A DNA stretch of 64,000 nt from Pseudomonas sp. Os17. Lineage in GTDB: Bacteria > Pseudomonadota > Gammaproteobacteria > Pseudomonadales > Pseudomonadaceae. The stretch is from positions 3,289,501-3,353,500 of the forward strand of contig NZ_AP014627.1 of NCBI RefSeq assembly GCF_001547895.1, in the 5' to 3' direction. The number at the start of each line of letters is the position of its first letter. Position 1 is the stretch's first letter. Below are positions 54,501-58,068 of the stretch, one piece after another. The notes beneath the pieces are model-generated. The model did no database searches. It had not been told where the DNA came from and saw only the letters and a program-made list of their open reading frames with translations. The position numbers and the translations under genes were made by a program.

Positions 54501-57500
54501 GCGGCTGGCGAGCATCGGCCAGGCCCCCGTCGCCGTTCCCGGGCCGGACACCGCGCCAGCGCAGCAGACCGCCGGGGCAGCCAGCTTCAGCGACAGCGAC
54601 CTGAAGCAGCACATCGAGGCGTTCGTCACCCGGATCATTGCCAAGGTGACCCAGATCGATGCGGCGAAAATCCATCCGGCGGAAAAGTTCGAAGCCTACG
54701 GCTTTGATTCGATCATGGCGGTGGGGGTGACCCAGGAGCTGGAAAAACACCTTGGCTCGCTGCCCAAGACCCTGCTGTTCGAACACGTCAATATTGCCGG
54801 CATGGTGCAGCACTTCGCGGTGAAGTATCGCCAACGCTTCATGGCGATCCTGGCGGGGGACGGGCAACCGCCGGCGCCCGCCGTGGCCGCGGCGCCCTGG
54901 AGCGCGGTGCCGGACGCAGCTCAGGCGGCCGTTGCTGCGCCCACGCCGCCAGTCCTGGAGGCTGCCCCGGAGCCGGAGCCGGAGCCGGAGCCGGAGCCGG
55001 ACAGTGACCTGGCGCAGTACGTGGCGGTGATCGGCCTGGGGGGCTATTACCCCGGTGCGCAAAGCATCGACCAGCTGTGGCAGAACCTGGCCAACGGCGT
55101 CGACTGCATGAGCGATTTCCCCGCCGAGCGCTGGGACCACAGCAAGCTGTACTACAAGAATCGTGAGGTGCTGGGCAAGACCACCTGCCTCAACGGCTCC
55201 TTCATCCAGGACGTGGACAAGTTCGACTACAGCTATTTCAAGATGCCCAAGGTCTACGCCGACCACATGTCGCCGGAAGTCCGGCTGTTCCTGCAGGCGG
55301 CGGTGCACACCTTCGAAGACGCCGGCTATTCCCGGGAAACCCTGCAGAGCCGCTATGGCGGCAATGTCGGGGTTTTGATGGGGGCCATGAGCAACGACTA
55401 TCACTACTACGGTTTCGAACACAATCTGGCCGAAGGCGCCATCGCCTCGGGTTCGGGCATGGCCACCATCCCGATGACGGTGTCCTATTTCTACGGGTTG
55501 ACCGGCCCGAGCCTGTTTATCGACACCATGTGCTCGTCGTCCTCGACCTGTATCCACACGGCCTTCCACATGCTGCGCCACGACGAAACCATGATGGTGC
55601 TGGCCGGCGGCCTGAACCTGATGTACCACCCGTACACGGTGGTCAACACCTCACAGGGCAACTTCACCTCGATCACCTCCGAATCGGTCAACAGCTATGG
55701 CATCGGCGCCGACGGTACGGTGATCGGCGAGGGCGTCGGGGCGGTGCTGCTCAAGCGCCTGGACCGGGCGGTTGCCGACCGCGATCAGATCTACGGGGTG
55801 ATCAAGGGCTCGGCCATCACCAATGCCGGCGAACGCAACGGCTTCAATGTGCCCAACCCGGACCTGCAGACCCTGGCGATCCGTCAGGCCATGGAGCAGG
55901 CCCAGGTGCACCCGGCGTCGATTTCCTATGTCGAAGGCCATGGGTCCGGCACCCGCCTGGGCGACCCGATCGAAGTGCTGGGGCTCAAGAACGCCTTTGC
56001 CGGCGCCACCGACGACAAGCAGTTCTGCTACCTGGGCTCGATCAAGTCCAATATCGGCCACCTGCTGGCCGCCTCGGGGGTGGCCGGGCTGACCAAGACC
56101 CTGTTGCAGCTCAAGCATGGGCAGATCGCGCCGTCGATCCACTCGGGCCAGCTCAACCAGGACATCGACTTTGCCGACAGCCCCTTCAAGGTGCCGCAGC
56201 AGTTGACCCCCTGGCATCGCCCGCAGCGGCTGGTAGACGGCCGGATGCAGCACTTTCCACGGCGGGCCGGACTGACTTCGATCGCCGCCGGTGGCATGAA
56301 CGCTCACCTGATCGTCGAGGAGTACCCACAGCTCGAAGACCCTGCCGGACAGATTGCCGATGAACGCCTGGTGTTTGTGTTCTCGGTGCACAAACTGTCG
56401 GTGCTGGCGGACAACCTCAGCCGTTTCCGCGACTGGCTGGCCACCAGCCAGGCGTCGCTGGCACAGATCGCCTACACCCTGCAGGTGGGCAAGAACAACC
56501 TGCGCAATCGGCTGGCGATCCGCTGTACCAACCGCCAGACGCTGCTGGAAGCGCTGACCGCTTGCATCAACGGGCAAGACCACGACGCGGCGTTCTATCG
56601 CTTTCAGGAAACCGATGCCGCGCAGTTGCCCACGGCGCATGATCCAGTGGCGTCCCTGCTGAACCAGTGGCTGCAGGGCGAGAACCTGCCGGACTGGGCC
56701 GGCCTGTATGAGCGCCAGCCGCAGCGCATCAGCCTGCCGGCCTACGGGTTCGAAAAGAATCGTTGCTGGTACACCGCGCCGGGCTATGAGTCGGCGATCA
56801 TCAACCCGCTGATGTTCACCGGCAAACTGCACCCGCTGGTGGCCGAGAACTGCTCGACAACGCAAGCGGGGGCGCTGTTTCGCACCGATTTCGTGGCGGC
56901 GCAATTGCTCGATTACCTGTACCGGGCGCCGGGCGGGCAACGCATCAGTGCCTTCAATCTGGCCGATGTCGCACTGGCTATGCCGGGGTTGGTCTCGCGG
57001 TTCGCCGGCTGCACGCTGTCGGTGTCCTGTGCGTTCGAGCACTTCATCGCCGACTGGGCTACGGTCAGCGCCCTGGCGTATCGCCTGCTGGAGGTGGATG
57101 AGGGGCAACTGGAGCTTGACTTCGATGTACAGCGCCAGGGCCAGCCGTCGCTGAACCTGGGGTTTGCCCTGGTCAACCCACTGACCGGCAACGAGCCGGT
57201 ACTGGCCCAGTCGGTGCTGGACGCTGCCAGCGAGCTGCTGAACCGTGCATCCAGCCCGGGAGACAGCCAGCTGGGCGCCGCCGCCGTGAGCCAGCGACTG
57301 GCCGAGGCCGGCTACGATTTCCTGCCCTACCTGGACAACCAGGGCCAGCGGGTCATCAGTGCCCATGGCTTGCTGCTCGAAGGCCGGCCACCGATCAACC
57401 GGCACAATCACCACGCCGACAACCTGCTGCTGACGCCTTACCTGGCGACCACCCTGGACAAGGCGATCTACCTGTTGCTCGCCGAGCTGGGGCTGCCCCA

Positions 57501-58068: not shown

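Follow-up and report, generated by a model that had tools for sequence, protein, structure and literature searches.

The window analysed here, a stretch of 64,000 nucleotides of Pseudomonas sp. Os17, raises the question of whether the last module of one of its polyketide synthase subunits is a branching module of the RhiE type, and, if so, which of its domains would carry out the chemistry. The window corresponds to positions 3289501-3353500 of a single-contig genome of 6,885,464 bases and takes in the bulk of a trans-AT PKS/NRPS cluster, with long open frames whose ends lie at 17052, 32018 and 44095, a P450 gene at 44092-45501 and a further PKS subunit that begins at 58134 and extends past the window end, where it finishes in a thioesterase domain. 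The frame entering from upstream has an AMP-binding domain, then a carrier domain, at its start. The thioesterase-ended subunit is followed downstream by a frame of 408 aa (no Pfam match at E up to 1e-5), by a protein of 703 aa in which two acyltransferase stretches were recognised and by a condensation/KS protein of 2334 aa; a tandem AT gene begins some 2.7 kb past the window. We take this layout to be that of the rhizoxin (rhi/rzx) clusters, and the name rzxE and the other gene letters follow the gene order of those clusters. Judging by ORF lengths, L018, 16 kb before the window, is probably the last part of the fit insect-toxin operon. This operon is reported to adjoin rhizoxin clusters in some strains (PMC10432460). 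A rhizoxin analog cluster of ca. 79 kb has been described in Os17 itself, together with an rzxB mutant of weaker antifungal and plant-protecting activity (PMC7726476), and a ca. 79-kb rhizoxin cluster has likewise been described in Pf-5 (PMC3973561).

A KS-linker-B-ACP module at the end of RzxE

All features given below lie on the forward strand. The rzxE gene (45568..58068) is an open frame running to 58068 from a likely GTG start at 45568, with GGAGAG 5' of the start, and it encodes a trans-AT PKS subunit whose branching module comes last. Homologues of RzxE are 4110-4229 aa long in 13 of 14 cases, the remaining one having 2640 aa. At the other end of the subunit, we observed that the protein preceding RzxE ends with a KS and that RzxE opens with a DH-like domain (window 42266-46476), a KS/DH split between two subunits of the kind described for GbnD4-GbnD5 (PMC9113145).

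Pfam resolved the translation of bases 55018-58065 into a KS (residues 2-375), a RhiE-like linker (454-519), RhiE_B (603-722) and a PP-binding domain (944-1006), and found no KR, DH or MT family in the module at E up to 1, in agreement with the preliminary description, which had read the last module as KS-B-ACP without any of these three. The presence of a KS-linker-B-ACP module at the end of RzxE is thus confirmed. Its KS (55021..56142; PF00109/PF02801) has the motifs DTMCSSS, EGHGSGT and KSNIGH in all 15 rows of the alignment (the window and 14 homologues), with catalytic codons at 55531 (Cys), 55939 (His) and 56059 (His), and is followed C-terminally by the linker at 56377..56574 (PF22336, 6e-24). 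The B domain occupies about 56800..57730, with its RhiE_B core at 56824-57183 (PF21887, E-value 1.3e-57; score 193 bits, where the cut-off is 27); the 4KC5 construct aligns to residues 1-904 of the module, which gives B a length of about 310 residues, close to the 300 or so first proposed. The acyl carrier domain lies at 57847..58035 (PF00550, 3.4e-12) and has its serine codon at 57931, within a GLDSI motif present in 15/15 rows, so that both the Cys-His-His set of the KS and the carrier serine are intact throughout.

Relationship of the module to RhiE

Searched against the PDB, the module found as its best matches the RhiE constructs 8OII (1720 bits, residues 1-1011) and 4KC5 (1598 bits), with the next chain, 7ZMA, at 951 bits. 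The B stretch alone matched two RhiE sequences only (again 8OII and 4KC5) at E up to 10. As far as sequence goes, and within the PDB, the comparison of B with the RhiE B domain, dehydratases and other folds proposed earlier therefore favours RhiE over a dehydratase or an unrelated fold. Among the homologues, P0011 aligns with 8OII through its residues 3182-4223 at 2185 bits and, on account of that score, is RhiE or a near-RhiE; the window module is 87.6% identical to it in the KS, 65.1% in B and 80.3% in the ACP. In a tree of 31 KS rows, the six branching KSs formed one clade with support of 100/100 on a stem of 1.12. Five of the 14 homologues were used in this tree, and L016 is absent from it, the motif having found no branching KS there.

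Sequence, domain order and cluster context thus agree, and the RhiE-type assignment that rests on them is supported. We consider the last module of RzxE to be almost certainly an orthologue of the RhiE module, one that by homology would perform delta-lactone branching, as the preliminary description had proposed, with the branched product argued from the likeness to RhiE. Degree of conservation was also considered as proof that the KS is the catalyst, and was rejected. Mean identity over 13 of the 15 rows (leaving aside P0002, a near copy, and P0009, which is short) is 89.3% for the branching KS, and the two remaining KSs of RzxE have 89.7% and 88.1%, so conservation does not single the branching KS out. 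The B domain, at 66.1%, is likewise close to the two DH-like domains of RzxE (65.8 and 67.7%).

When one genome per species was searched with B, three loci were found, all in Pseudomonas, at 70-82% identity. Of 4103 candidates from a protein search with B as the region, 14 were homologues, every one of them carrying RhiE_B, with 99 to 40% identity in B, and the organisms named for them are Pseudomonas, Azorhizophilus paspali, the Ralstonia solanacearum complex and one 'Gammaproteobacteria'; rhizoxin clusters in Ralstonia have already been reported (PMC7930024). A single member among these homologues, P0015, is 53.5% identical to RzxE overall and 40.7% in B, and is perhaps a rhizoxin-like variant. 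In drawn genome samples, RhiE_B occurred in 1/369 genomes (class), 5/398 (genus) and 1/398 (phylum), the Os17 genome itself included, counts from samples that need not include Mycetohabitans or Ralstonia and so say little on spread. One of the five matches in the genus, G461, scored 27.2 bits against the cut-off of 27. The plasmid collection held no match to the module as DNA or to B as protein, and for window positions 1-20000 the five listed of 16 plasmid records contained only short matches, covering at most 4% of the query.

The B domain and its likeness to dehydratases

The B domain of RhiE is described as a structural scaffold with a DH-like double-hotdog fold, visible in 4KC5 (PMC9113145), and it is natural to ask how much of a dehydratase is left in its counterpart here. 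The expression HxxxGxxxxP has no match in B, a result of little weight, since it also misses RzxE's own DH. Of eight RzxE domain profiles compared with that of B, the active DH gave the top score (31.1, against 13.9-19.0 for the others), through an alignment that is itself weak (probability 15%, P 0.0017); the inactive DH-like domain scored just 19.0. In this weak alignment, the column of the DH histidine falls on Leu 40 of B, adjoining Tyr 39, and that of the DH aspartate falls on Asp 220. Neither Tyr 39 nor Asp 220 varies among the 13 rows counted, and the aspartate occurs in 15/15. The earlier statement that B is without the catalytic residues of dehydratases consequently holds in part: the histidine is likely lost, but the aspartate is unsure, Asp 220 being kept, and the alignment behind both statements is weak. 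A structure prediction for the window B domain, made from a six-row alignment that left out L015 and L016, gave a pLDDT of 40, too low to use.

One could propose from the kept residues that B is more than a scaffold, with Asp 220 and the conserved Tyr 39 beside the site of the lost histidine acting as a pair in ring closure, a proposal that we regard as very improbable. A related reading would make B catalytic in its own right, for example through Asp 220 aiding the closure of the ring. Presence of this residue in every row, in line with the DH aspartate, speaks for it, but the alignment is weak, the inactive DH-like domain scored no more than 19.0, and a review cites kinetic and mutational evidence that B has no catalytic part, its double-hotdog fold being essential and a DH domain able to mimic it (PMC4979870). 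Given these published mutants, any role of Asp 220 is doubtful, and the chance that B is itself a catalyst is very slim indeed.

Alternatively, B could be an ordinary dehydratase and the module a plain elongation module. The DH-like fold reported for RhiE B (PMC9113145) and the preference of the B profile for the active DH are consistent with this. However, the dehydratase profiles PF21089/PF14765 have no match in B at E up to 1, and the same library detects both of the other DH-like domains of RzxE, including the one at its start, which is probably inactive as judged by an Asn at the catalytic Asp and a missing motif proline in all 14 rows that have the domain. Moreover, no dehydratase in the PDB matches B at E up to 10, and the module is without a KR, so there would be no beta-hydroxyl to dehydrate. 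We therefore find it extremely improbable that B dehydrates, and return to the RhiE-type branching module with its scaffold-like B domain as the reading to be followed.

Substrate, proposed mechanism and known systems

The RhiE module is reported to act on a 5-hydroxy-2-enoyl thioester, using a Michael addition to couple malonate on the ACP with the enoyl thioester on the KS, after which the delta-hydroxyl forms the lactone (PMC4979870). By Pfam, the two modules preceding the branching module of RzxE are KS-KR-ACP and then KS-DH-KR-ACP. From its domains and motifs this order would fit such a substrate, the first module leaving a hydroxyl and the second an alpha,beta double bond. The KR of the KS-KR-ACP module (49309..49863; PF08659) is the expected source of the lactone-closing hydroxyl, and, like the KR of the following module (53794..54348; PF08659), it shows the Ser-Tyr-Asn pattern in each of five rows examined. 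The expected maker of the enoyl group is the DH at 52306..53172 (PF21089/PF14765), which has its catalytic His and Asp in 15/15 rows. In all 15, though, the Gly of HxxxG is replaced, by Glu in four rows, the window among them, and by Asp in 11, and its activity is for this reason likely but not sure. The DH and KR domains and their motifs agree with the proposal that the preceding module makes the enoyl acceptor.

Domain order, motifs, homology and cluster context were established here, and each chemical step that follows is carried over from RhiE. The two preceding modules would build the chain and hand it, as a 5-hydroxy-2-enoyl thioester, to the branching KS, which would take malonyl-ACP charged by a trans-acting AT. 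The malonyl carbon would then be added to the beta carbon in a Michael addition, with no condensation at the thioester. Attack of the 5-hydroxyl on the KS thioester would next give an ACP-bound delta-lactone branch, to be handed to the next subunit, with the B domain maintaining the shape of the module as a non-catalytic part. The mechanism in the preliminary description survives in that the KS-B-ACP arrangement would perform the addition. Its emphasis on B does not, as published accounts assign catalysis to the KS (PMC4979870, PMC9113145), and the KS of RhiE is named as the catalyst elsewhere (PMC10006239).

In this soil Pseudomonas, the module would equip the antibiotic rhizoxin with a side branch and a six-membered lactone ring. 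Such chemistry is rare and of use in PKS engineering, yet it was elucidated with the RhiE orthologue, and a close relative has a solved structure. Because Pseudomonas rhizoxin clusters and the RhiE mechanism are both in print (PMC4979870, PMC3973561, PMC10006239, PMC7726476), the RzxE branching module belongs, as a known member, to a system already described, and the earlier reading, essentially upheld, implied more novelty than there is. The value of the locus lies in an additional natural sequence, one of a set in which 14 homologues, with B identities from 99% to 40%, could help pinpoint the important residues of B.

A diverged form of the same arrangement occurs within the genus. In G461 (L019/L020, contig C2 near 1462160), a KS-B-ACP stretch follows a KS-DH-KR-ACP module and has next to it a gene for a TauD-type oxygenase and one of the Asn-synthase/glutamine-amidotransferase kind. 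From this gene content the locus is probably a glutarimide PKS, for example of the secimide type, which is reported from Pseudomonas syringae. Since this diverged stretch beside an amidotransferase gene points to the glutarimide type, the KS-B-ACP kind of module is wider than rhizoxin. That the window module is itself of the glutarimide type, closing an imide instead of a lactone, has next to no probability: although B and X domains are reported to be functionally equivalent (PMC4979870) and G461 shows its KS-B-ACP stretch beside an Asn-synthase-type amidotransferase gene, the window module is only 35.7% identical to the G461 stretch over 929 residues (27% in B), RhiE being far closer; it ends a later subunit of a long line, whereas the published description of the glutarimide line has it begin with malonamate and branch directly after the first elongation (PMC7756420); and no amidotransferase family was met in the parts scanned with Pfam, RzxE and the genes beyond the window among them, with RzxB, RzxC and the in-window part of the subunit after RzxE set aside.

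The RzxE module can be set against both known systems. With the glutarimide KS-X(B)-ACP modules of cycloheximide, 9-methylstreptimidone, gladiofungin and secimide it has in common the module design and branching of the Michael type (PMC4979870, PMC7756420). In those modules, however, the imide is closed early from a malonamate start, whereas in RzxE a hydroxyl is expected to close the lactone late. With the RhiE module of Mycetohabitans/Burkholderia rhizoxinica (4KC5, 8OII) it has in common both the KS-B-ACP order and the conserved motifs. In P0011, the RhiE or near-RhiE homologue, the branching module is also C-terminal and the entire subunit is 71.3% identical to RzxE, the two differing in their domains, with identities of 87.6% (KS), 65.1% (B) and 80.3% (ACP).
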